Assembly (NCBI GenBank): GCA_016234115.1
Contig: JACRHD010000052.1
Location: forward strand, 1 to 51,959
DNA length: 51,959 nt
From: Nitrospirota bacterium
Lineage (GTDB): Bacteria > Nitrospirota > Thermodesulfovibrionia > UBA6902
Reading direction: 5' to 3'
A program made the position numbers and the translations under genes. This document shows, piece by piece, positions 2,558-50,410 of the stretch; positions within the stretch are counted from its first letter, which is position 1, and every line of letters starts with the position of its first letter. The notes below the pieces were generated by a model, which did not search any database, had not been told where the DNA came from, and was given only the letters and a program-made list of their open reading frames with translations.

Positions 2558-2585
2558 CGGTGTATGTCTTATCTGAACATTGTAC

Positions 2586-2606
2586 GGGCGACCCGGCGGG
2601 TCGCCC
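2586..2606. repeat. GGGCGA-type short palindrome
   Basis: Perfect 9-bp arms (GGGCGACCC / GGGTCGCCC) with a 3-nt spacer. Related palindromes occur at 31045 (inside cimA), 47291 and 51741. Confidence 0.6.
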
Positions 2607-2645
2607 CTATGCCTTGCCCCGTTTGACATGGGAACAGTGTTCGTC

Positions 2646-4013
2646 ATGAACAAACGAAGGGTCGTCATCACAGGTCTCGGCATGGCAACGTCGCTTGGTC
2701 TCGAGGTCGGGGAAAACTGGCGGAAGGCGCTTGCCGGGGTCTCGGGCATCGGCAGGCTGACGTATGCGCAGGCCGGGAAGTCCGCCGTGCAGGCGGTGGG
2801 ACAGGTGAAGGAAGCTGACCGGAAGAGGATACAGGACGCGTTTCCGGAAGAAGCTGCAAACGAGGGCGAAAGCAGGACGTTGTTTGCGCTGTGGGCGGCG
2901 AATGAGGCGTTGAAGGACGCGGGACTTGTAAATACTGAGTCAAGAGTCAAGAGTCAAGAGTTAAGAGTCGGAACTGAATATTTAAATTTCAAATTGCCGA
3001 ACTCCGAACTCCGAACTCCGAACTCTAAACTCTCCTTTTCCCGCTGTGGGGTTGTTCTTGCGGCGGGGCTTGGGATAGACAGGATAGAAGATATACAGAG
3101 ATGGACCGGCAGGGACGGGAAATTCGATTATCAGAGATTTGGAATGGAATACAGAGAGGTCCACAGGGAATCCCTTGTGAGAAACAATTCAAACAGGCCG
3201 TCCGCGCTTATCGCTGAAAAATTCGGCCTGAACGGTCTCAACGGCGCTATAACGACCGCGTGCGCCTCAGCCTCACAGGCGATAGGCACGGCTTTTCGGG
3301 CAATCCGGCGGGGTGACGCCGATATGATGGTCGCCGGTGGAGCGGATTCGATGATCAATCCCGTGGGACTCGTTTTCTTCGTCCTTCTCGGGGCGGCAAA
3401 CACATCGACCGACAACCCGGAAGAAGTATGCAGGCCTTTTGACAGAAAGCGGGGAGGGCTTGTAATGGGAGAAGGCGCGGGGATCGTTGTCCTTGAGGAA
3501 GAATCACACGCCCTGAAGAGGGGGGCGAACATATATGCAGAGGTCGCGGGATATGGCACAACCATGGATGCTTACCAGGTGACTGCTCCTGATCCGAAAG
3601 GCGAAGGCGCTGAAAAGTCGATGCGCTCGGCGCTTCTGGATGCGAACATACCTCCGGAGGAAATTGATTATATCAACGCTCACGGCACCGGCACAAAGTT
3701 GAATGACGCAGCCGAGACCCTGGCGATAAAGAGTGTATTTAAAGAACATGCGCGCAAGCTCTGCGTCAATTCGAGCAAGTCGGTAATCGGGCATTTGATA
3801 GCCGCCTCGGGCGGCCCGGAGTTCGTGTTTACGGCGCTGAGCGTTAACAGGGATGAGATACACCCGACGCTTAACCTGAAGACCCCTGATCCCAAATGCG
3901 ACCTCGATTACGTCCCGGATGTCAAGAGGGCAAGGACCGTGCGGGCCGCGATATCGAATTCCTTCGGCTTCGGCGGGCAGAATGCGTCGCTTGTGGTAAA
4001 AAAGTATAGATAA
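2646..4013 (+). CDS. Beta-ketoacyl-ACP synthase (FabF-like), catalytically complete, with repeat insertion
   Basis: 455 residues from the ATG at 2646 (MNKRRVVITG), chosen because the family begins there; an upstream in-frame extension is repeat sequence. All three active-site elements are present: ITTACASASQ (Cys206), NAHGTGT (His346) and NSSKSVIGH (Lys378, His383). It should catalyse decarboxylative Claisen condensation of malonyl-ACP with an acyl-ACP in the cytoplasm. It is the only ketosynthase in the cluster with a full triad, so the Cys-less partners at 562 and 9282 probably work with it. Residues about 97-130 are an in-frame insertion encoded by heptamer repeats (SRVKSQELRV...TPNSELRTPNSK), absent from normal FabF proteins (family knowledge), replacing a surface loop before the conserved GVVLAAGLG strand. 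Confidence 0.9.
   Translation: MNKRRVVITGLGMATSLGLEVGENWRKALAGVSGIGRLTYAQAGKSAVQAVGQVKEADRKRIQDAFPEEAANEGESRTLFALWAANEALKDAGLVNTESRVKSQELRVGTEYLNFKLPNSELRTPNSKLSFSRCGVVLAAGLGIDRIEDIQRWTGRDGKFDYQRFGMEYREVHRESLVRNNSNRPSALIAEKFGLNGLNGAITTACASASQAIGTAFRAIRRGDADMMVAGGADSMINPVGLVFFVLLGAANTSTDNPEEVCRPFDRKRGGLVMGEGAGIVVLEEESHALKRGANIYAEVAGYGTTMDAYQVTAPDPKGEGAEKSMRSALLDANIPPEEIDYINAHGTGTKLNDAAETLAIKSVFKEHARKLCVNSSKSVIGHLIAASGGPEFVFTALSVNRDEIHPTLNLKTPDPKCDLDYVPDVKRARTVRAAISNSFGFGGQNASLVVKKYR
2936..3035. repeat. In-frame heptamer repeat with inverted arm (inside ketosynthase 2)
   Basis: Left arm: tandem AAGAGTC-type 7-mers (2938-2966). Right arm: tandem GAACTCC/GAACTCT 7-mers (about 2998-3028), roughly complementary to the left. 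No stop codon occurs in the host frame. Confidence 0.85.
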
Positions 4014-4037: not shown

Positions 4038-4150
4038 AAAATCCCCCTTTATCCCCCTTTTTCAAAGGGGGAATTCCCTCCCGCTGTTAACTATGTACGG
4101 CCTGGTGTTCCCCTCTTTGGCAAAGAGGGGGCAGGGGAGATTTTTTAAAA
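4038..4150. repeat. C-rich/G-rich palindromic repeat, copy 2
   Basis: AATCCCCC-TTTATCCCCC-TTTTTCAAAGGGGG is followed after a spacer by CCCCTCTTTGGCAAAGAGGGG and a GGGGAGATTTT end. It lies between ketosynthase 2 and fabG, without apparently interrupting either; the fabG ribosome-binding site (GGGAGAG at 4170) lies just outside it. Confidence 0.75.
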
Positions 4151-8723: not shown

Positions 8724-9236
8724 ATGCGCTATTTATTGATCGACCACATAACGGAATGGAAATCCGGGGCGTCCATCAGGGGCGTCAAGAACGTTGCCAT
8801 GAGCGAGGACTTTCTTGAGTTTCATTTCCCCAAAAACCCCATCATGCCCGGCGTCCTCCTGCTTGAGGCGCTGACGCAACTGACGGGCTGGCTCGAGGCC
8901 GCTTCCTCCGATTTCGCCAACTGGTTTTTGATCGGCAAGGTAAGGAAATCCAATTTCTACAGTTTTGCGCTGCCGGGGGACCAGGTTGAGCTGGAGGTCG
9001 AGCTTATTTCAGATCAAGGGGGGGGGACTGAAATTCCCCCTTTGAAAAAGGGGGATGAAGGGGGATTTTCAGAACGAAATCCCAATACAAGAGTTTACAG
9101 AGGGACCGGCATGGTGAAAGGGAAAAAGAAAATCGTCGCCGAGTTCGAGGGCGTGATTGTGCCGGTCAATGAAATAGAAGACATTGAGGAACAGAGGAAG
9201 TTTTTTAAGGTGCTTACGAGAGAACCGAGATCGTGA
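8724..9236 (+). CDS. FabZ-like dehydratase 2 with in-frame repeat peptide
   Basis: 170 residues. The FabZ active site FHFPKNPIMPGVLLLEAL supplies His34 and Glu48. An in-frame insertion at about residues 98-120 contains IPPLKKGDEGGF, the translation of the C-rich/G-rich palindromic repeat, placed in a loop between two predicted strands of the hot-dog fold; the flanking strands (GDQVELEVELIS and YRGTGMVKGKK) remain collinear with FabZ. It is preceded by CGGAGA. It restarts the lipid cluster after the island and lies 45 bp before ketosynthase 3. Function: dehydration of 3-hydroxyacyl-ACP. Confidence 0.88.
   Translation: MRYLLIDHITEWKSGASIRGVKNVAMSEDFLEFHFPKNPIMPGVLLLEALTQLTGWLEAASSDFANWFLIGKVRKSNFYSFALPGDQVELEVELISDQGGGTEIPPLKKGDEGGFSERNPNTRVYRGTGMVKGKKKIVAEFEGVIVPVNEIEDIEEQRKFFKVLTREPRS
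9033..9072. repeat. C-rich/G-rich palindromic repeat, copy 3 (in-frame in dehydratase 2)
   Basis: CCCCCTTTG AAAA AGGGGG followed by GGGGGATTTTC; only the left half of the longer element seen at 27222 and 50311. No stop in the host frame. Confidence 0.85.
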
Positions 9237-9281: not shown

Positions 9282-10568
9282 ATGTCTGAAAGAGAAGTAG
9301 TCATAACAGGGATGGGGCTTACAACGCCCTTAGGGAAAAACATCGAAGAAAACCTGGCCGGCGTCAGGGACATGAGGACCGGCATCGCGCATTATCCTCT
9401 TGAGGGCCTGCCGGATTTTTTACAGTATTTCGCACAGGTGAAGGAATATGCCCTGCCGCAGGACATGTCGCCCCGGCAGGAAGGACAGATGAAGTTTCTC
9501 AACCGCGGCGCAATCCTCGGGTTCTGTTCATCCTGTGAGGCGTTGTCGGAGCTGAAGGAGAAGATTTCAGATGTCTCCCCCGCAAGAAGGGCCTTGTATG
9601 TCGCCTCGGGAAATTTCACGAAGGTCGGTTACGACTTCATGTATCCCGCTCTCAAAGACAGCGCCGACGCCGATTGGCAAAGCGTGGACCAGAGGAAGCT
9701 GAACGCCGCCGCGCTTAACAAGGTCAACCCCTTCTTTCTGCTGGAGTCCCTTTCCAATAACCTGTTCAGCTTCCTGTCGGCCCATGTGGAATTCATGGGG
9801 CCCAACACCAGTCTTGCAAGCCTCTCGCCCTACGGGGGGAATGCCCTGGAGCTGGCATACAGGAGCATCAGGCAGAACAAGGCGGACGTCGCGCTGGCAG
9901 TGGGTTACGGCAACTGGATCACCGAGATACCCATGTATGAACTTGAAGGGCTGGGGATACTTTCAAAATGCAAATCAGGCGTTCATTCATACAGGCCCTT
10001 TGACAGACACAGGGACGGTTTTGTCCCCGGCGAGGGCGGCGCGGCAATACTCCTGGCGTCCTCTGACGCCGCAGAGCATCTGGGCATGGAAATATCGGGA
10101 AAGATAAAGGGCGTTGGAAATTGTATTGAATTCCCCTCAAACCAGCGTCTCGGCGTTCCTGATAAAGTCATCAGGGGCAATATCATGTCGTTAATGAAAG
10201 AAACGGGGCTCGGCGTAAATGACCTTGCGTGTATCATCCCCCACGGCAGCGGCACAAGGAAGGGCGACAGGTCGGAGCTGAGGTCGATCATCGATGTCCT
10301 GGGGGACAACAGGGACGTGCCCGTTTGCGGGTTAAAACCCTACACCGGTCACATGGGGGCCGCAAGCGATATAGCGGAGGTCATCGTCGGCATCCATTCG
10401 GTGAAGAACAAAGCTGTTCCCGCGACGCTGAATTTCGAGGAGACCGAAAAAGAATTCTCCGGATTGAGGATATCAAAATCCCCCCAACTGTGCGATAAAA
10501 ACTTCTTCCTCTCGGTCAGCTACGGAGTCGGCGGGCAATCTTCGTCGGTGATTGTGGAAGTTGTTTGA
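9282..10568 (+). CDS. Ketosynthase-fold protein with Ser at the nucleophile position
   Basis: 428 residues, FabF-like (VVITGMGLTTPLG start, HGSGT, GLKPYTGHMGAASD, C-terminal SVSYGVGGQSSSVIVE). At the active-site elbow the T-A-C-A-S-G pattern is replaced by S-L-S-P-Y-G, putting Ser182 where Cys is expected, while the two His and the Lys are kept. Like the Ala version at 562 it is unlikely to condense; a chain-length-factor or decarboxylase role is more likely, or Ser could act as a slow nucleophile. The sequence is divergent from the other two ketosynthases. It has no clear Shine-Dalgarno; the preceding gap is heptamer repeat. Confidence 0.85.
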   Translation: MSEREVVITGMGLTTPLGKNIEENLAGVRDMRTGIAHYPLEGLPDFLQYFAQVKEYALPQDMSPRQEGQMKFLNRGAILGFCSSCEALSELKEKISDVSPARRALYVASGNFTKVGYDFMYPALKDSADADWQSVDQRKLNAAALNKVNPFFLLESLSNNLFSFLSAHVEFMGPNTSLASLSPYGGNALELAYRSIRQNKADVALAVGYGNWITEIPMYELEGLGILSKCKSGVHSYRPFDRHRDGFVPGEGGAAILLASSDAAEHLGMEISGKIKGVGNCIEFPSNQRLGVPDKVIRGNIMSLMKETGLGVNDLACIIPHGSGTRKGDRSELRSIIDVLGDNRDVPVCGLKPYTGHMGAASDIAEVIVGIHSVKNKAVPATLNFEETEKEFSGLRISKSPQLCDKNFFLSVSYGVGGQSSSVIVEVV

Positions 10569-14648: not shown

Positions 14649-15794
14649 ATGATATGTTATCAGGTGTCAAGGAAACTGATGATCAGCGCCGGCGAGGCCT
14701 CGGGGGAATTATACGGCGCGCTGTTAGGCAGGGAGGTCAAAAAACTCTGGCCGGACGCCGAGATTTTCGGCATAGGCGGCGCCCGGATGGAGAAGGAAGG
14801 TATTTCGTTGATCGCCCCCATTTCACAGGTTGTCGGAATTATAGAAGCGCTCCGGCATATAGGAGAAGTGAGAGGCGTTTTAAAAAAGGCGTCTGAGGCG
14901 CTTAAAACCGAAAAACCCGATGTCCTCGTCCTCATAGATTATCCCGATTTCAACCTCGCGCTCGCAAAAAGGGCAAAGGCCGCAGGCGTCCCGGTGCTGT
15001 ATTACGTCAGCCCGCAGGTCTGGGCGTGGCGAAGGGGCAGGGTAAAAAAGATCGCGGCCCTCGCCGACAGGATGGCCGTCCTCTTCCCTTTTGAAGTGGA
15101 ATATTATAAAGACACGGGAATGCCCTGTGAATTTGTCGGCCACCCGATTACCGAGACGATGAATATCCGGGGAACGAAAGAAGAACTGAAGAAGGCCCTC
15201 GGACTTGAACCGGACAAAAGGGTAGTTACCCTGCTTCCCGGCAGCAGGCCTGATGAAATTGAAAGACACCAGGCGGTCCTTGAAAAGGTAGCTGAAAAAA
15301 TCCACATGGAATTTCCGGACGTGCAGACAGTCGTCCCCGTCACTGCCGAATCCCGGCTGAAGGGGCGGTTGCCGGATTTTATCAGGGTAATCCGGGGACG
15401 CACAAGCGAGGCCGTTGCCTGCTCGGACGCTTCGGCCGTGGCCTCAGGCACCGCGACGCTGGAGACCGCCCTTTCCGGCACGCCGATGGTTGTCTTTTAC
15501 AAGGTGTCTCCATTGTCTTTTCGTATTGCAAAGATGGTGATCAAAGTCAAATTCATCTCCCTTGTCAATATTCTTTCCGGGCGTGAAGTCGTCCGGGAGC
15601 TGATACAGGAAGAAGCGAGCCCCGACAAGATATTTTCGGAGCTGAGAAAAATCCTGAAGGATATGCAATACAGAAATGACATGATTTCAGGCCTGAATAA
15701 AATCAGAGAACTTATGTCCGGGAAAGAACCGTCCCGGAGGGTGGCCCGGATGGTCGGGGAAACAGCCGGGTGGGACAATGCTGTTACTGTATGA
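14649..15794 (+). CDS. lpxB: Lipid-A-disaccharide synthase
   Basis: 381 residues from the ATG at 14649; a GTG at 14664 giving (M)SRKLMISAGEASGE is an equally good family-type start. GT19 glycosyltransferase: AGEASGELYGA N terminus, IGGARMEKEG, DYPDFNLALAKRAK, YVSPQVWAWRRGR, LLPGSRPDEIERH and the SGTATLETAL nucleotide-sugar site. It joins UDP-2,3-diacylglucosamine and lipid X into the lipid A disaccharide at the cytoplasmic face of the inner membrane. It overlaps waaA by 17 bp, the first of three overlapping lipid A/Kdo genes. Confidence 0.95.
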   Translation: MICYQVSRKLMISAGEASGELYGALLGREVKKLWPDAEIFGIGGARMEKEGISLIAPISQVVGIIEALRHIGEVRGVLKKASEALKTEKPDVLVLIDYPDFNLALAKRAKAAGVPVLYYVSPQVWAWRRGRVKKIAALADRMAVLFPFEVEYYKDTGMPCEFVGHPITETMNIRGTKEELKKALGLEPDKRVVTLLPGSRPDEIERHQAVLEKVAEKIHMEFPDVQTVVPVTAESRLKGRLPDFIRVIRGRTSEAVACSDASAVASGTATLETALSGTPMVVFYKVSPLSFRIAKMVIKVKFISLVNILSGREVVRELIQEEASPDKIFSELRKILKDMQYRNDMISGLNKIRELMSGKEPSRRVARMVGETAGWDNAVTV

Positions 15795-17064
15795 TTTTCT
15801 TTCGGCCCTGGCCGTCCTGATATATTCACCTCTGCTTTGTCTGAAGAAGGGGCCGGAAAACAGGACCGTCTTTGTTGCTGAGCGCCTCGGACTCTCCGGG
15901 TATGACAAAACCGATGTATGGGTGCACGCGGTCTCCGTAGGCGAAGTAATGGCGTGCGTCCCCTTTTTAAAGGCGTTAAAAAAAGAATTCCCGGAAAAAC
16001 GCATTACTCTTTCCACAACGACCTATACCGGGCAGAAAGTGGCAAGGGACAGTTTCCATGAGGCCGACAGGATAATGTATATGCCGCTGGACGCGGGGTT
16101 GATCATGAGAAGGGTCGTCGGCCTGCTGAGACCGGAAATCTTCATAACCGTAGAGACCGAGCTCTGGCCGGCCCTCTTCAGGGCGCTGAAACAGCGCGGC
16201 TGCAGGATCGTCGTTCTGAACGGCAGGATATCAATCAGGTCTTTCACCGGCTACAAGCGCTTTGATTTCTTTATGAAGAAAGTATTGTCATACGTCGACT
16301 TTTTTTATATGCAGGGCAGGGGCGACGCCGAAAGGGTCACGGAAATCGGCGCGGACAGACACAAGGTGGGTGTTATGGGGAACTTTAAATTCGATATAAC
16401 GTTTGCCTCCGCGAAACGTCAGGACTGGGTCGAGCTTATCAGCAGCAGGGTCCTTCTTGCCGCGAGCACCCACAGGGGCGAAGAAGATATAATACTCGAG
16501 GCCTTTGAGTCCGTAAGACGCTTCTGTCCGGATATCAGACTCATTATCGCGCCCAGACATCCGGAAAGATTTGATGAGGTCGCGGAGATGCTGAAGAAGA
16601 GGGGCCTGAAATTTATCAGGCGGACTGAAATACGCAGCAAAGAGCAAAGAGCAAAGGGCAAAGGGCACGGATTACAGATCACGGATCACGGGGTTTATGA
16701 CGTCATCCTTCTTGACACCATCGGTGAATTATCACAGGTTTTCTCCATCGCAACCATCGCATTCATCGGAGGGAGTCTTGTGCCGGTGGGCGGGCATAAT
16801 ATCCTGGAACCGGCGTACTGGGGCAGACCGATAATCTTCGGACCGCATATGGACAATTTTCCGTTCGCGGCGGATTTCCTCGAGGGCCGCGCCGCTGTCC
16901 GTGTTGCGGACGCAAAGGATGTGGAAGCGGCGGTCAAAGGCCTGCTTATGGATGGCGACGAGGCGGCGCGGATGGGGCAGAGGGCCAGAGCGATGGTAGA
17001 AAAGAACACCGGCGCCGTGAAAAAAGCAATCGAGCTCGTTCGAGGTTTCATTGGGACTGCTTAG
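15778..17064 (+). CDS. waaA: 3-deoxy-D-manno-octulosonic acid (Kdo) transferase
   Basis: 428 residues, GT30 family, with an N-terminal membrane-associated segment, the catalytic Glu in AERLG (residue 35), WVHAVSVGEV, TTTYTGQ, VETELWP and the C-terminal GGSLVPVGGHNILEPAYW motif. It transfers Kdo from CMP-Kdo to lipid IVA. Residues about 287-305 (RSKEQRAKGKGHGLQITDHG) are an in-frame heptamer insertion lying between two conserved segments, in a part of the C-terminal Rossmann domain where the family normally has a shorter loop. Starts inside lpxB and ends inside lpxK: tight translational coupling. Confidence 0.94.
   Translation: MLLLYDFLSALAVLIYSPLLCLKKGPENRTVFVAERLGLSGYDKTDVWVHAVSVGEVMACVPFLKALKKEFPEKRITLSTTTYTGQKVARDSFHEADRIMYMPLDAGLIMRRVVGLLRPEIFITVETELWPALFRALKQRGCRIVVLNGRISIRSFTGYKRFDFFMKKVLSYVDFFYMQGRGDAERVTEIGADRHKVGVMGNFKFDITFASAKRQDWVELISSRVLLAASTHRGEEDIILEAFESVRRFCPDIRLIIAPRHPERFDEVAEMLKKRGLKFIRRTEIRSKEQRAKGKGHGLQITDHGVYDVILLDTIGELSQVFSIATIAFIGGSLVPVGGHNILEPAYWGRPIIFGPHMDNFPFAADFLEGRAAVRVADAKDVEAAVKGLLMDGDEAARMGQRARAMVEKNTGAVKKAIELVRGFIGTA
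16639..16692. repeat. In-frame heptamer repeats inside waaA
   Basis: GCAAAGA/GCAAAGG units (16639-16666) followed by ATCACGG-type units (about 16672-16692). No inverted arm is visible in this copy. Confidence 0.8.
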
Positions 17065-18097
17065 CGTAATTTACGGCCTGGGACTGAAGGGCAAGAGGTC
17101 ATTGGCAAGGCCGCGTAGGCTCCCTGTCAAAGTCATAAGCGTCGGCAATATCACTCTTGGCGGGACCGGAAAAACGCCGGCGGTCATCGCGATTGCGGAA
17201 GAAGCTGTAAAGAGGGGATTGAGTCCGTGTATTCTTACAAGGGGGTACAGGGGGAAAGCTAAAGGACCTTGCCTCATCGGTAAGAGTCAAGAGTCAAGAG
17301 TCAAGAGTCAGGAGGCGGAAACCGGATATGACGCGGGTGAGTCCCGGGCAATTGATCCTTTTATTTTCGGCGACGAGCCGGCATTAATGGCGGAAAGATT
17401 AAGAGATGTGCCTGTTATAAAATGCTCGGACAGATACGAAGGAGGGATGTTCGCTCTTAACTCCAAACTCTTAACTCTTGACTCTTCTTCCGTCTTCATT
17501 CTCGATGACGGGTTTCAGCATTGGCGGCTTCACAGAGATATTGATATATTACTTATTGACGCGACCGACCCGTTCGGAAATGAAAAACTCATACCGGAGG
17601 GCAGACTGAGAGAACCTCTGGTCTGCATGAAAAGGGCGGGTATTATTCTAATTACAAAAGCCGATGCGGCCGGAGGCAGACCGGCGGAGGCGCTGGTGCG
17701 GAAGGTAAGGCAATATAATCGTGAAGCGCCTGTATTCAGGGCGTCACACAGGCCCGCGTTTCTTGTTAACGCCGCGGGGGAGACGGTATCCGCCGATACG
17801 GTAAAGAACGGGAAGGTTTACGCCTTTGCCGGCATCGCAAATCCGAATTCTTTTAGAGACGGGCTGATCTCTTTCGGCTTCGGCATTTCCGCCCTGAAAT
17901 CATTCAGGGACCATTACAGATACGGACAGAAGGACATTGATGGAATAATAAAAGAAGCCGGCGGAGCGGACATCATCACCACTGAAAAAGACATGGTGAA
18001 GCTGAAGTATCTGCAACTGCCGGGGAATTTGTTTGCCTTAAGGGTCGAATTTGATATTGAGGACTCCTTTTATGATATCCTTTTCAAGGATATCTGA
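17051..18097 (+). CDS. lpxK: Tetraacyldisaccharide 4'-kinase
   Basis: 348 residues from a TTG at 17051 overlapping waaA by 14 bp. Walker A GNITLGGTGKTP (residues 32-43), TRGYRGK, the ILDDGFQHWRLHRDIDILLID block and TTEKDMVKL are diagnostic. It phosphorylates the 4' position of lipid A disaccharide with ATP at the inner membrane. Two in-frame heptamer arms are inserted: KSQESRVKSQEAE (about 77-90) and NSKLLTLDSSS (about 136-147), reverse-complementary at DNA level but separated by about 140 bp of conserved kinase sequence including the GDEPALMA segment. Confidence 0.94.
   Translation: MGLLSVIYGLGLKGKRSLARPRRLPVKVISVGNITLGGTGKTPAVIAIAEEAVKRGLSPCILTRGYRGKAKGPCLIGKSQESRVKSQEAETGYDAGESRAIDPFIFGDEPALMAERLRDVPVIKCSDRYEGGMFALNSKLLTLDSSSVFILDDGFQHWRLHRDIDILLIDATDPFGNEKLIPEGRLREPLVCMKRAGIILITKADAAGGRPAEALVRKVRQYNREAPVFRASHRPAFLVNAAGETVSADTVKNGKVYAFAGIANPNSFRDGLISFGFGISALKSFRDHYRYGQKDIDGIIKEAGGADIITTEKDMVKLKYLQLPGNLFALRVEFDIEDSFYDILFKDI
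17281..17490. repeat. Split heptamer palindrome inside lpxK
   Basis: Left arm AAGAGTC units at 17281-17312, right arm AACTCTT/GACTCTT units at 17456-17488. The enclosed 140 bp is conserved lpxK coding sequence, so the arms were not gained as one contiguous block, or one copy moved. Confidence 0.8.
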
Positions 18098-27195: not shown

Positions 27196-27338
27196 TTCAG
27201 TTACAGGTGATATTACCAATGTCTCCCCCTTTGAAAAAGGGGGGGCGAGGGGGGATTTTGAAATAAAAACGTTCATCTAAAAATCTCCCCTAAACCCCTC
27301 TTTTCCAAAGAGGGGGATAACCTGCACCTGTAACTGAA
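27196..27338. repeat. C-rich/G-rich palindromic repeat, copy 4, with outer 13-bp arms
   Basis: Perfect outer arms TTCAGTTACAGGT (27196-27208) and ACCTGTAACTGAA (27326-27338). Inside are CCCCCTTTGAAAAAGGGGG, GGGGGATTTT, AAAATCTCCCC and CCCCTCTTTTCCAAAGAGGGGG. The best-preserved full-length example of this family in the window. Confidence 0.8.
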
Positions 27339-32073: not shown

Positions 32074-32168
32074 TTCCCCTCTTAGAAAAAGAGGGGTCAG
32101 GGGAGATTTTGTAATAAATTCATTTCAATCAAAAAATCCCCCCTCGCCCCCCTTTTTCTAAGGGGGGG
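32074..32168. repeat. C-rich/G-rich palindromic repeat, copy 5
   Basis: CCCCTCTTAGAAAAAGAGGGG...GGGGAGATTTT, spacer, AAAAATCCCCCCTCGCCCCCC-TTTTTCTAAGGGGGGG. Its purine-rich end lies 10 bp before the next start codon and may act as its ribosome-binding site. Confidence 0.8.
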
Positions 32169-32177
32169 CAAAGCAAT

Positions 32178-40954: not shown

Positions 40955-43900
40955 ATGAAGAAATTCATAGGACTTGACGCGGGTTCGGTAAGTGTAAAAC
41001 TTGCAGTTCTGGACGGCGGGGGGAATGTTCTTGAAACAAAATATGTCAGGCATAAAGGCAACCCCCTTCCTGTTGCGTATGAACTTCTGAAGCACATAAC
41101 GCAAAGTGGCGCGATTGCAGATTGCAGATTGCAGGTTGCAGATTCAAAATCTCAAATCTCAAATCTCAAATCCCCAATAAACCTGTCACCTGTCACTCGT
41201 CACTTGTCACTTTCCATCACAGGCTCCGCCGGTAAAATCATCGCCGGGGCGCTGGGTATAAAGCCCGTAAACGAGGTCGTCGCCCTCGGCTACGCGACGA
41301 GGAAGCTCTGCCCTGAAGTCAGGACCGTCATTGAAATGGGCGGAGAGGATTCAAAGCTCATCCTGCTTGAAAACGGGGCGATCAGGGAATTCTCCATGAA
41401 CGCAGTCTGCGCCGCAGGCACGGGTTCCTTCATAGACCAGCAGGCGGAAAGGCTCATTCTCAGCATCGACGAATTCAGCGAACTGTCGCTCAGGTCGCAG
41501 CATCCTCCGCGAATAGCCGGCAGGTGCAGCGTCTTCGCGAAATCCGACATGATCCATCTGCAGCAGATAGCAACGCCTGTAGAGGACATAGTCGCCGGGC
41601 TCTGTTTCGCCGTTGCCAGAAATTTCAGGGGCAGCATCTGCAAGAACATGGAGCTCCCGCCGCCGATCAGTTTTCAGGGCGGAGTGGCCGCCAACAGGGG
41701 CGTAGTCAGGGCCTTCAGGGAGGTGCTGCAGGCGGACGACATAATAATCCCGGAGCATTTCGCTGTAATGAACTCAATCGGAGCGGCCCTTAAGGATATG
41801 GAACAGGGCATTGAAAATCATTTCGATATTGAAAAGTTGAAATTATTTATCGACACCTCGAGAGACGAGGAGACAGGGCTTAAACCGCTGAGGGGGACAA
41901 AGAGTCAAGAGTCAAGAGTTAAGAGTCAAGAAGAAACTGACAGCGAGGCTCCGACCCTTAACTCTGAACTCTTAACTCTTAACTCCAAGAATGCATACCT
42001 CGGAATAGATATCGGCTCGATCAGCACGAACCTTGCAGTTATAGACGAAGACGGAAGGCTGCTCGCGAAGAGATATCTGATGACCGCGGGCAGACCGATT
42101 GAAGCGGTCAAAAAGGGGCTTGAGGAAATAGGCGGAGAGATCGGCGGCAAGGTCGATATCCGCGGAGTGGGAACAACAGGCTCCGGCAGATATATGATAT
42201 CCGACTTCGTCGGAGCGGACATCGTAAAGAACGAGATCACGGCGCAGGCCCGGGCCGCCGTGGAGATAGACCCCGGGGTGGACACTATTTTTGAAATCGG
42301 AGGGCAGGACTCGAAATATATCTCCATAAGAGACGGGATCATCGTCGATTTCGAGATGAACAAGGCCTGCGCCGCGGGCACCGGGTCTTTTATTGAAGAA
42401 CAGGCGGAAAAGTTGGGCATATCGGTGAAAAACGAATTCGCCGAAATCGCGTTCAACTCACAGCGTCCCTGCTCGCTTGGCGAAAGGTGCACGGTCTTCA
42501 TGGAGAATTCTCTACTGTCCAAACAGCAGAGGGGCTCGACAAAGGAAGACCTTACCGCCGGACTCGCGTATTCCATAGTGCAAAACTATATAAACCGCGT
42601 TGTAGGCGACAGGGCGGTCGGCGGGAAGATATTCTTCCAGGGAGGGGTCGCTTTCAACAAGTCCGTTGTCGCCGCCTTCGAAAATTTTCTTGGAAGAACA
42701 ATCACTGTCCCGCCCCATCATGATGTGACCGGAGCGATAGGCATGGCGATCATCGCGAAACAGCATATGAAGAGTCAAGAGTCAAGAGTCAAGAGTCAAG
42801 AGAATGAAGATGAGCTGCTTAACTCTAAACTCCTAACTCTTAACTCTAAATTCAAGGGGTTCGACCTTTCAAAGAGAAGCTATGAAATCAAATCGTTCCC
42901 ATGCAAGGGCTGCGATAATTTATGCGAGATAAATCGTGTACAGGTAGAAGGGGAAAAAGAGCCGCTTTATTATGGAAGCCGTTGCGAGAAGTATGACGTC
43001 AAACGGAAGAAAGATACAAACGCGCAGGACGTGCCCGACCTCTTCGCCGAGCGGGAGGCGCTGCTTGTAAAATCGCACAATGAATATTCTGAACAATTCA
43101 AAATTCAAAATTCCAAACTCCAAACTCCAAACTCTAAACTCCGGACCCGTATCGGTATTCCCCGCATTTTCTTCTTCCACGATTATCTTCCGTTCTGGAG
43201 CACGCTGCTGTGGGAGTTAGGGTTTGAGGTCGAGGTCTCAGGCGGAACAAACAGGCAGATAATAAACAAAGGGGTTGAGAATATCCTCGCTGAAAGCTGT
43301 TTCCCCCACAAGGTCGCGCACGGCCACATAAAGGATTTGATGGACAATAAGGTAGACGCTGTTTTTCTGCCGAGTTTCATTAACTTCAGTTCCGGCAGCG
43401 GGTCGGCGTCCAGTTTCGCATGCCCGTACGCCCAGACGATGCCTTACATAGCGGGCATTGCCTTTGAGGACATCAGGCTCATTAAACCTGTGATAAACTT
43501 TGAGCGCGGAAGGCAGTATCTCGTCGATGAACTGCACAGATGCCTCAAGCCGTTCCATATAACAAAACATGCGATAAAAAAAGCGCTGGAATATGCGGAC
43601 AGGGAGCAGGAGGCGTTCACGTCCGCAATCAGGCAGCGGGGCAATGAGGTCCTCGGAAAAATAAACGACAGGACCATCGTTATTGTAGGCCGTTCGTACA
43701 ATGCCTCCGATTCAGGCATCAATCTCGAAATACCGAAGAAACTCGCCGCTCTTGGGGTGTTTTCCATCCCTATGGACTATCTGTTCCTTGAGTCCGTCGA
43801 CATTTTCGGAAAGTGGTCCAATATGTACTGGAGATCAGGGCAGAATATTCTGAAGGCCGCTGAAATTATCCGGGACAACCGGAAACTGTTTGCCCTTTAC

Positions 43901-45457
43901 ATCGGGAATTTCTCCTGCGGCCCGGACTCCTTCATACAACATTTCTTTGATGAAACCATGTCGGGCAAACCGTATTTGCATATCGAGATCGACGAACACA
44001 GCGCGGATGCCGGGGTCATTACCAGGTGCGAGGCATTTCTTGACAGCATAGAGCAGCAGGCGAGAAGTGCGAAAGTGAAGGATGGCAGAAGTGAAGAAGC
44101 GCAGAAGGGTAGAAGTGCAGAAGTAACTCCTTCACTCCCACACTCCTACACTCCTGCACTCCCTCACTTTCACACTCCCTCACTGAGCAAGCGGGTTGTT
44201 TACATCCCACGCATGTCGGACCATACCATAGGGATTGCCGCCGCTTTTGAGAACTGCGGGCTGAATGCCGAAATCATGGAGATCTCCGATGCCGAAACCG
44301 TAAAGATCGGCAGGAGATATGTTTCAGGCAAGGAATGCTATCCCTGCGCCATAACAACCGGAGATATGGTAAAGAAGGCGATGTCGAAAGACTTTGATCC
44401 CGACAGGGCCGTTTTTTTCATGCCCTCGGGCGCGGGACCGTGCCGTTTCGGGCAATACAATATCTTTCACAGGCTGGTCCTTGACGAGATAGGCTTCAGG
44501 GGCGTCCCCATCCTTTCCCCCAACCAGGATGAATCGTTTTACTCTGCCCTCGGCATGATCGGGAAAGACTTTACGAAGCATGCGTGGAGGGGCATTATCG
44601 CTATTGAATTACTTGTAAAGTGCCTTCACGAGACCCGGCCGTATGAAATCAATAAAGGTGAGACCGATGAGCTTTACAAGGAGTATCTGAAGAAAATAAG
44701 AGAGGCCCTTAAAAGCGCCAACGGGGCGCTGCCGGAGCTCTTTCGGGACATAAGAAGGTCCTTTTCCGGCGTCAGAAAAACAGGGGAGAAGAAACCCCTG
44801 GTAGGGATTATCGGAGAAATATTTGTCAGGCACAATGTCTTTGCCAATGAGAATTTGATCAGGAAGGTTGAAGAGCTGGGCGGCGAGGTGTGGCTTGCCC
44901 CCATAGAAGAATGGATTTATTACGTCAATCTGATGGGGATGCGGAAGTCTCTCGCAAGGCTCCGCAGCGACGGGTTCACGCAGAAGCTGGCGGAGGACCT
45001 CTTAAGGACTGTTCTTACAAGATATGTCCAGAAAAACATTGAACACAACTATTCGAAGCCTTTCAACGGATATTTAAAGACGCTGAAGGAGCCTTCCACA
45101 ACTGAAATACTGAAGAACGCGTCTCCGTACCTCCACGATTCATTTGAAGGCGAGGCCGTCCTGAGCATGGGCAAGGCAGTGGACTTTGTCAAACACGGCG
45201 CCTCCGGAATTATAAGCGCAATGCCCTTCGGCTGCATGCCCGGCACCATCGTAAGCGCCCTGCTGAAAGGTCTTAAACGGGACACCGACATACCGAGCCT
45301 GAGCGTGGCTTATGACGGTGTGGAGACGACCTGCTCCGGTATCCAGCTCGAGGCCTTCATGCACCAAGCGGGGGAGTATAGTGAGCGGACCGTAAACGAC
45401 AGGGTCAAGGGTCACGGGGCAAGGGGCAAAGGGAAGTACGGCTCCGGACTTCTATAA
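40955..45457 (+). CDS. Giant CoA-substrate-specific enzyme activase (2-hydroxyacyl-CoA dehydratase activator type)
   Basis: 1500 residues. Two BadF/BcrA-type ASKHA ATPase domains: about 1-300 (FIGLDAGSVSVKLAV, MGGEDSKLI, CAAGTGSFIDQQ) and about 342-600 (YLGIDIGSISTNLAV, IGGQDSKYI, CAAGTGSFIEEQ). Then a Cys cluster (FPCKGCDNLCEINR, about 648-662), a DUF2229-like domain (RIGIPRIFFFHDYLPFW, about 730-950) and a C-terminal HgdB/CoA-dehydratase-like part with SGKECYPCAI and CMPGTIVSALLKG. It probably uses ATP to inject electrons into an [4Fe-4S]-dependent dehydratase or corrinoid-type partner. About 170 codons are in-frame repeat insertions, mostly at domain borders. The TAA stop comes from a repeat element. 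Confidence 0.88.
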   Translation: MKKFIGLDAGSVSVKLAVLDGGGNVLETKYVRHKGNPLPVAYELLKHITQSGAIADCRLQVADSKSQISNLKSPINLSPVTRHLSLSITGSAGKIIAGALGIKPVNEVVALGYATRKLCPEVRTVIEMGGEDSKLILLENGAIREFSMNAVCAAGTGSFIDQQAERLILSIDEFSELSLRSQHPPRIAGRCSVFAKSDMIHLQQIATPVEDIVAGLCFAVARNFRGSICKNMELPPPISFQGGVAANRGVVRAFREVLQADDIIIPEHFAVMNSIGAALKDMEQGIENHFDIEKLKLFIDTSRDEETGLKPLRGTKSQESRVKSQEETDSEAPTLNSELLTLNSKNAYLGIDIGSISTNLAVIDEDGRLLAKRYLMTAGRPIEAVKKGLEEIGGEIGGKVDIRGVGTTGSGRYMISDFVGADIVKNEITAQARAAVEIDPGVDTIFEIGGQDSKYISIRDGIIVDFEMNKACAAGTGSFIEEQAEKLGISVKNEFAEIAFNSQRPCSLGERCTVFMENSLLSKQQRGSTKEDLTAGLAYSIVQNYINRVVGDRAVGGKIFFQGGVAFNKSVVAAFENFLGRTITVPPHHDVTGAIGMAIIAKQHMKSQESRVKSQENEDELLNSKLLTLNSKFKGFDLSKRSYEIKSFPCKGCDNLCEINRVQVEGEKEPLYYGSRCEKYDVKRKKDTNAQDVPDLFAEREALLVKSHNEYSEQFKIQNSKLQTPNSKLRTRIGIPRIFFFHDYLPFWSTLLWELGFEVEVSGGTNRQIINKGVENILAESCFPHKVAHGHIKDLMDNKVDAVFLPSFINFSSGSGSASSFACPYAQTMPYIAGIAFEDIRLIKPVINFERGRQYLVDELHRCLKPFHITKHAIKKALEYADREQEAFTSAIRQRGNEVLGKINDRTIVIVGRSYNASDSGINLEIPKKLAALGVFSIPMDYLFLESVDIFGKWSNMYWRSGQNILKAAEIIRDNRKLFALYIGNFSCGPDSFIQHFFDETMSGKPYLHIEIDEHSADAGVITRCEAFLDSIEQQARSAKVKDGRSEEAQKGRSAEVTPSLPHSYTPALPHFHTPSLSKRVVYIPRMSDHTIGIAAAFENCGLNAEIMEISDAETVKIGRRYVSGKECYPCAITTGDMVKKAMSKDFDPDRAVFFMPSGAGPCRFGQYNIFHRLVLDEIGFRGVPILSPNQDESFYSALGMIGKDFTKHAWRGIIAIELLVKCLHETRPYEINKGETDELYKEYLKKIREALKSANGALPELFRDIRRSFSGVRKTGEKKPLVGIIGEIFVRHNVFANENLIRKVEELGGEVWLAPIEEWIYYVNLMGMRKSLARLRSDGFTQKLAEDLLRTVLTRYVQKNIEHNYSKPFNGYLKTLKEPSTTEILKNASPYLHDSFEGEAVLSMGKAVDFVKHGASGIISAMPFGCMPGTIVSALLKGLKRDTDIPSLSVAYDGVETTCSGIQLEAFMHQAGEYSERTVNDRVKGHGARGKGKYGSGLL
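41107..41214. repeat. In-frame heptamer arrays inside first ATPase domain of the activase
   Basis: GCAGATT-type units (41116-41140), AAATCTC-type units (41142-41172) and GTCACCT/GTCACTT units (41188-41214), three different 7-nt arrays in tandem. Translated about residues 50-86. Confidence 0.8.
41896..41990. repeat. In-frame heptamer palindrome between the two ATPase domains
   Basis: AAGAGTC units (41899-41933) with arm AACTCTG/AACTCTT (41957-41985); translated about residues 313-345. Confidence 0.85.
42770..42852. repeat. In-frame heptamer palindrome after the second ATPase domain
   Basis: AAGAGTC units (42771-42803) with arm AACTCTA/AACTCCT/AACTCTT (42819-42850); translated about residues 605-632, just before the Cys cluster. 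Confidence 0.85.
43095..43142. repeat. In-frame heptamer array before the DUF2229-like domain
   Basis: AATTCAA and AAACTCC units, one orientation only; translated about residues 713-729. Confidence 0.8.
44061..44187. repeat. In-frame heptamer-like palindrome inside the C-terminal part of the activase
   Basis: Purine arm GAAGTGC/GAAGTGA/GCAGAAG units (44065-44127) and pyrimidine arm CACTCCC/ACTCCTA/ACTCCTG units (44130-44185); translated about residues 1035-1077. The longest insertion in the gene. Confidence 0.8.
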
Positions 45458-50310: not shown

Positions 50311-50410
50311 CATAATTCCCCCTTTGAAAAAGGGGGAGGCAGGGGGATTTTGAAATAAAATCATCCATTCTAAAATCTCCCCTAACCCCTCTTTTACAAA
50401 GAGGGGAATT
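50311..50410. repeat. C-rich/G-rich palindromic repeat, copy 6
   Basis: CCCCCTTTGAAAAAGGGGG, GGGGGATTTT, spacer with ATAAAATCATC, AAAATCTCCCC, CCCCTCTTTTACAAAGAGGGG. Very close to the copy at 27222. It sits between rnfA and rnfB. Confidence 0.85.

Follow-up and report, generated by a model that had tools for sequence, protein, structure and literature searches.

Dispersed heptamer repeat arrays at six recurrent sites of a CoA-activase-type gene in a Nitrospirota bacterium

A 1500-residue protein of the CoA-activase/dehydratase type is interrupted by six repetitive segments in a Nitrospirota bacterium, of which one stretch of 51,959 nucleotides (hereafter the window) was analysed. The segments originate at the DNA level and belong to a population of short tandem arrays that is dispersed through the genome, has a repertoire specific to that genome, reuses the same six sites in orthologous genes and turns over rapidly, and the coding arrays hold fewer stops than the intergenic ones. 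The preferred explanation, to which a probability of about three in four is assigned, is that heptamer hairpin repeats scattered over the genome enter loops that tolerate insertions, slip there and give way to other repeats, with the reading frame and the avoidance of stops acting as the filter.

According to this explanation, the six activase segments would be translated copies of dispersed heptamer arrays (octamer arrays at site S5), and the arrays of the whole genome, mostly intergenic and divided among about nine unit families, would number in the hundreds. Arrays some four units long would continually arise anew at many places, either alone or as a pair with the purine-rich arm first and the pyrimidine-rich arm second. 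The survivors in genes would be those that keep the frame, carry no stop in the register that is read and lie in a loop or linker that the fold tolerates, and the activase would offer six such places. Once an array is in place, its length would change by 21 nt at a time and it could be exchanged as a whole for an array of another family, so that a site persists while its peptide changes. If this is true, a whole bacterial lineage has in effect been scanning its proteome for sites of insertion, and the arrays mark loops accepting foreign peptides in ferrochelatase, HisF, LpxK, FabF and the activase, and the turnover visible between sister species gives a natural record of tolerance for rapidly changing insertions.

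Repeat arrays inside the activase gene

The activase reading frame runs over 1500 aa without a stop. Pfam and NCBIfam profiles matched BcrAD_BadFG/CoA_E_activ in two stretches (best at residues 349-601), DUF2229 at residues 732-942 and, weakly, HGD-D at residues 968-1032; the relatives with solved structures are 2-hydroxyacyl-CoA dehydratase activators. A preliminary description of this DNA had placed six in-frame, stop-free arrays in the gene, and at the same residues all six were found as open DNA arrays of period 7 or 8 (Table 1). The derivation of the heptapeptide SRVKSQE from a 7-nt unit was correct as well, and the proposed array identity proved right for the five sites with period 7 but not for S5, which is octameric. 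With a stricter threshold, the whole window gave 15 arrays of period 7 and the shuffled window none; periods 4-6 and 9-13 gave no array at this threshold, and only periods 7, 8 and 14 gave any. The activase arrays are far above chance.

Table 1. Repeat arrays and host genes in the window (positions are those of the window)
Feature	Position	Strand	Remarks
CoA-activase/dehydratase-type protein, 1500 aa	40955..45457	+	two BcrAD_BadFG activase domains, DUF2229, weak HGD-D match
S1, three period-7 arrays GATTGCA, AAATCTC, TGTCACT	41113..41212	+	residues 53-87, loop of first activase domain
S2, inverted pair, period 7, AAGAGTC / CTTAACT	41900..41985	+	residues 316-344, separating two activase domains
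S3, inverted pair, period 7, AAGAGTC / CTTAACT	42770..42853	+	residues 606-634, past second activase domain
S4, single mixed array, AATTCAA passing into AAACTCC	43095..43141	+	residues 714-730, directly ahead of DUF2229
S5, inverted pair, period 8, AGAAGTGC / ACTCCCAC	44063..44184	+	residues 1037-1077
S6, single array GGGTCAA/GGGGCAA	45401..45433	+	residues 1483-1494, C-terminal tail
Beta-ketoacyl synthase gene (2580-4013), inverted pair GAGTCAA / CCGAACT	2937..3033	+	inside N-terminal domain
KDO-transferase gene (15778-17064), AGCAAAG array	16636..16667	+	residues 287-297
LpxK gene (17051-18097), R-array 17282-17314 and Y-array 17459-17486	17282..17486	+	two loops

In the predicted model of residues 1-642 (mean pLDDT 78), four regions fall below a pLDDT of 50, three of which correspond to S1, S2 and S3 (55-79, 315-340 and 618-642). 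S1 is flanked by a helix (37-50) and a strand (84-89), S2 by a helix (292-301) and a strand (345-353), and S3 follows the helix 589-615. S1 is accordingly assigned to a predicted loop on the surface of activase domain one; S2-S5 lie at domain borders and S6 in the C-terminal tail. The earlier placement of the arrays between domains thus stands for S2-S5 and fails for S1, which lies inside a domain, and for S6. A role as linkers, proposed in the same description, is plausible for S2-S5; the linkers are presumably translated, as the open frames suggest, and the encoded peptides would be neutral and disordered. RNA folding gave z-scores of -4.6 for S2, -3.0 for S3 and -3.1 for S5, which fold well as inverted pairs, and of -0.7 for S1; the single arrays S4 and S6 likewise formed no convincing hairpins. 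No known RNA family was found in the window.

The same six sites in activase orthologues

A search for the activase covered 60 relatives, and 29 orthologues entered the alignment. When the arrays were clustered by position, with the six sites withheld from the input, 67 arrays in 30 orthologues fell into exactly six clusters corresponding to S1-S6 and none elsewhere (genomes with an array: S1, 1; S2, 12; S3, 16; S4, 10; S5, 9; S6, 2). In the orthologue alignment, 63 period-7 and 13 period-8 arrays were located in the 14.5 kb of activase linkers, and no array of either period in the other 112 kb of coding sequence. The S1 array is exclusive to the genome under study among the 29 compared, and that at S6 is common only to this genome and its nearest relative (L002). 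At S2, 18 distinct units were counted across orthologues, including GAGTCAA, GGGGCAA, AAGTCAG, GCAGTCA, GGAGTCA, GCAGAAG, CACAGAC and others; other genera of the family mostly have a conserved non-repetitive linker there with the pattern EF..RH..SYYIH. The presence and absence of arrays on an activase tree built with the linkers left out imply at least 24 changes over the six sites (minimum changes: S1, 1; S2, 4; S3, 8; S4, 7; S5, 3; S6, 1). The view that the segments are insertions in a conserved protein is borne out by the orthologues without arrays or with other repeats there and by the low pLDDT of S1-S3. Identical peptides at matching positions in unrelated genomes would have spoken for ancient coding sequence; the comparison came out in favour of insertion, as the positions agree and the peptides differ.

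Ordinary ancient variable linkers, whose repeats would stem from selection on the protein in favour of hydrophilic peptides of low complexity, would agree with the length of S3, which varies in nearly every orthologue whether arrays are present or absent. Such selection would however yield periods divisible by three, whereas the repeat lies at the DNA level with 7 nt, out of the codon step, and the same families recur between genes; the idea is in the main refuted and is given almost no credence.

Turnover was seen directly in the closest orthologue pair, L005 and L006, whose activase cores are 97.7% identical in amino acids and 94.0% in nucleotides. The two sister species differ at S4 by exactly 21 nt, equal to three AAGTCAG copies, and at S5 by a net 21 nt, in line with the rule of the preliminary description that multiples of 21 nt keep the frame; at S2 they have a wholly different arrangement with other units. 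Changes in length are probably due to slippage or recombination. Furthermore, the linker units were closer to the dispersed repertoire of their own genome than to those of other genomes (permutation p 0.002, across six genomes, some with only eight arrays).

Besides the heptamers, the congeners (L002-L007) carry GTAGGGGC...GCCCCTAC palindromes at activase S1, S2 and S3 and CCCCCTT...AAGGGGG hairpins at S3. The activase linkers are sinks for several dispersed hairpin families sharing insertion sites, and the occurrence of several hairpin kinds in the same linkers suggests that these sites are tolerant rather than specifically targeted.

Array population of the genome and other host genes

The genome was sampled as stretches amounting to 758 kb, in which ORFs were predicted by length only, the gene calls outside the named families likewise resting on ORF length. 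This sample contained 167 arrays, 105 of them outside predicted ORFs though 85% of the sample is predicted coding. Counts by period were 92 for period 7, 7 for period 8 and 10 for period 9, with 41 and 11 for the heptamer multiples of 14 and 21 nt, and no array with a period of 4-6 or 10-13 was found in the sample; 10 was thus the highest count for any period other than a multiple of 7. The arrays group into about nine unit families, with consensus sequences such as GAGTYAA, GGGKCMR, GTAGTTA and TCAGCNN, in which the core positions are fixed and the variable positions are fixed too. Four full units are the mode both in this genome (103/167) and in relatives (67/117), and the recurring part is an array of about 31 nt made of 7- or 8-nt units, often present as a single arm. 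The sequence between arms had no shared similarity on inspection; only the arms recur. The four-unit pattern of one family had 292 matches in this genome, where the control with the pattern reversed had 4; the 60 relatives gave between 0 and 75.

Among 42 neighbouring array pairs of this genome, 36 are complementary; the purine-rich arm leads in 32, and no pair has it in the second place. In relatives, with non-complementary families included, 17 pairs are purine-first and 1 is pyrimidine-first, and in genes of relatives the counts are 13 and 0, a set that overlaps the former in part. The purine-first order was held even between non-complementary families, for which hairpin pairing is no explanation.

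Plain replication slippage, by which random 7-mers in linkers would be duplicated in place with no dispersal between sites, agrees with the whole-unit difference at S4 of L005 and L006, and in many bacteria the heptamer is the most frequent of the long simple repeats, for which polymerase slippage has been proposed (PMC4679880, PMC4692102). It is nevertheless unlikely as the whole explanation: the 160-odd arrays are confined to about nine families with a fixed core and variable positions in place of random units, the copy number peaks sharply at four with no falling-off, neighbouring arrays have a fixed polarity, and period 7 dominates with the above gaps in the range of periods.

Further observations on the wider distribution were made. 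An AAGAGTY array is present in many phyla, including Bacteroidota, Cyanobacteriota, Planctomycetota, Acidobacteriota and others (loci L091-L170), and its inverted partner was found downstream in 11 of 80 cases and upstream in none; a related GAGT pattern is absent from several families of the class under study. Locus L068 contains an exceptionally long array of 181 nt (9710-9890, GCTCTAT/GCTCTGT) with an inverted partner at 9636-9690, and locus L036 (11572-13795) contains four successive inverted pairs ATTCAAG / TTTTGAA about 500 nt apart, each close to where a short ORF starts. The genome also has another dispersed repeat family, CCCCCTTT...AAAGGGGG hairpins, mostly intergenic, at 478-500, 4043-4072, 9036-9060, 27225-27245, 32148-32170 and 50318-50345 of the window.

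At least 17 genes, the activase included, carry in-frame arrays in the 758-kb sample, which is about a fifth of the genome. The 16 others encode a P-type ATPase, aconitase, CbiA, RibD, LarC, ferrochelatase (three arrays), DXS, MqnA, HisF, an ABC ATPase, LpxK, a KDO transferase, a FabF-type synthase, ThiE, archease and an aminotransferase. In the window itself, in-frame heptamer arrays are found in three genes besides the activase, those for the beta-ketoacyl synthase, the KDO transferase and LpxK (Table 1). The arrays of the 16 genes mostly lie within a Pfam domain, in loops inside the domain in the case of single-domain enzymes. In six of these genes, all 62 orthologue arrays were at the loops used in this genome, with differing units. 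The alignment of HisF with HisF-LUCA is gap-free apart from some 30 residues where the array lies, and its predicted model, which is poor (mean pLDDT 64.5), shows a coil at the insertion and lends weak support. Since in-frame arrays are present in 16 other genes, the activase is not special: the suggestion of a preferred target is not upheld, and that of a tolerant host fits, the activase being one such host among many. Of the sense-strand frames, 85% were free of stops in coding arrays and 37% in intergenic ones; coding arrays thus favour units that are stop-free in every register.

The arrays might also be selected binding sites or RNA elements whose presence in coding regions is regulatory, a role proposed for the heptamer and octamer arrays of Geobacter and the GGGAATC arrays of Xanthomonas. 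The conserved core positions with fixed degenerate positions, the four-unit mode, the opposite-strand pairs as in Geobacter (PMC2700814) and the enrichment between co-directional genes (1.34 arrays per kb, against 0.54 in divergent and 0.47 in convergent gaps) are in favour of this proposal. Yet the unit family at one site changes between close species, which leaves no defined binding sequence conserved, there are related genomes with no arrays at all at the sites, and the positions match protein loops and borders rather than gene ends. Selection of this kind is considered quite improbable, and insertion at tolerant loops is retained as the preferred explanation.

Possible origins and known systems

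For the spread of the arrays, copying of hairpin or single-stranded repeat DNA in a REPIN-like manner, together with slippage, is favoured, albeit tentatively. No transposing agent was found for the arrays, nor did they show a recognisable target-site duplication or a conserved sequence in the loop. Six Y1_Tnp matches are present in the genome; heptamers were in two of the six fetched loci, with uninformative flanks, and the correlation of Y1_Tnp with array count (rho 0.39) was not significant once the tree was considered, so mobilisation by Y1/RAYT is unproven. An origin of one arm by fold-back copying of its partner was rejected, as the unit variants do not follow each other in mirror order (p 0.67). 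A source of the RVT_1 reverse-transcriptase or telomerase-like type is unlikely because the genome under study, the richest in arrays, has no RVT_1 match.

Alternatively, the arrays could be scars of DNA ends, each broken 3' end gaining about 31 nt of purine-rich heptamer before the tails are joined. A strand-specific source would supply the heptamer, and the joined tails would form pairs with the purine arm first and the pyrimidine arm second, resembling a fused telomere. This would fit because the polarity is fixed even across families and the arm length is constant, and also because the arms have no mirror order and the ancestral loop sequence is replaced; it is nonetheless regarded as very improbable. 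Nine families, four units, purine-first polarity and the lack of mirror order between arms constrain any model of origin.

Heptamer arrays recurring at the same core-enzyme loops across an order with changing units were not found described in the openly searchable literature, and several known systems share part of these features. The RPE of Rickettsia are elements of 105-146 bp with a family consensus (Ogata 2000, 2002; reviewed in PMC2229807), and RPE as well as GTAG/CGTC repeats are dispersed, hairpin-forming sequences found both between genes and in frame within conserved proteins (PMC2229807, PMC3733652). The present arrays resemble RPE in occupying both kinds of location, in their absence from orthologues and in their presumed neutrality. 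By an RPE-type stem-loop criterion, S2, S3 and S5 fold well and S1, S4 and S6 do not, and the majority of neighbouring pairs are complementary as given above. The arrays differ from RPE in that no consensus of 100-150 bp exists, the sequence between the arms is unique each time, many arms are single and a given loop carries different unit families from one species to another. If the preferred explanation holds, the concept of selfish DNA in proteins extends from the defined elements of Rickettsia to the four-unit heptamer arrays known from several phyla.

The closest parallels in architecture are the degenerate four-unit heptamer arrays GGGAATC of Xanthomonas and GGGGAYT of Nostoc (PMC4692102), with four units in 56% of the X. 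campestris arrays (PMC4692102), and the GGGACCG and octamer classes of Geobacter metallireducens, which form opposite-strand pairs with variable spacing (PMC2700814). These systems share with the present one the period of 7 (some 8), usually four units, a fixed core with degenerate positions and many copies per genome, both intergenic and intragenic. The unit sequences differ, however, and about nine families coexist here in one genome; a G-tract of the quadruplex-forming type seen in Xanthomonas and Nostoc is not a trait of the present units, as only GGGKCMR has a G-tract of three, and GAGTYAA, GTAGTTA, ATTCAAA and others have none. A TAACTGA heptamer is known from Beggiatoaceae (PMC4679880). 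In the P6b stem of the cyanobacterial tRNA-Leu intron (Nostoc), degenerate heptanucleotide repeats of the two sides pair to form a hairpin, with a copy number that differs from strain to strain (PMC3488679). This is likewise a case of heptamer repeats lodged where a functional molecule tolerates them, although there it is an RNA intron stem at a single locus and here a protein.

REP/REPIN sequences have GTAG ends and are associated with RAYT transposases (PMC3733652, PMC3116915), and GTAG-tagged palindromes form the REP super-family. The heptamer arrays differ from them in having no GTAG or CGTC end, judging from inspection of the unit consensus and linker DNA, and in having arms that are tandem repeats instead of palindromes. 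They are alike in being dispersed, short inverted pairs with variable spacers, and in the congeners GTAGGGGC palindromes with the look of REP are present in several of these activase linkers.
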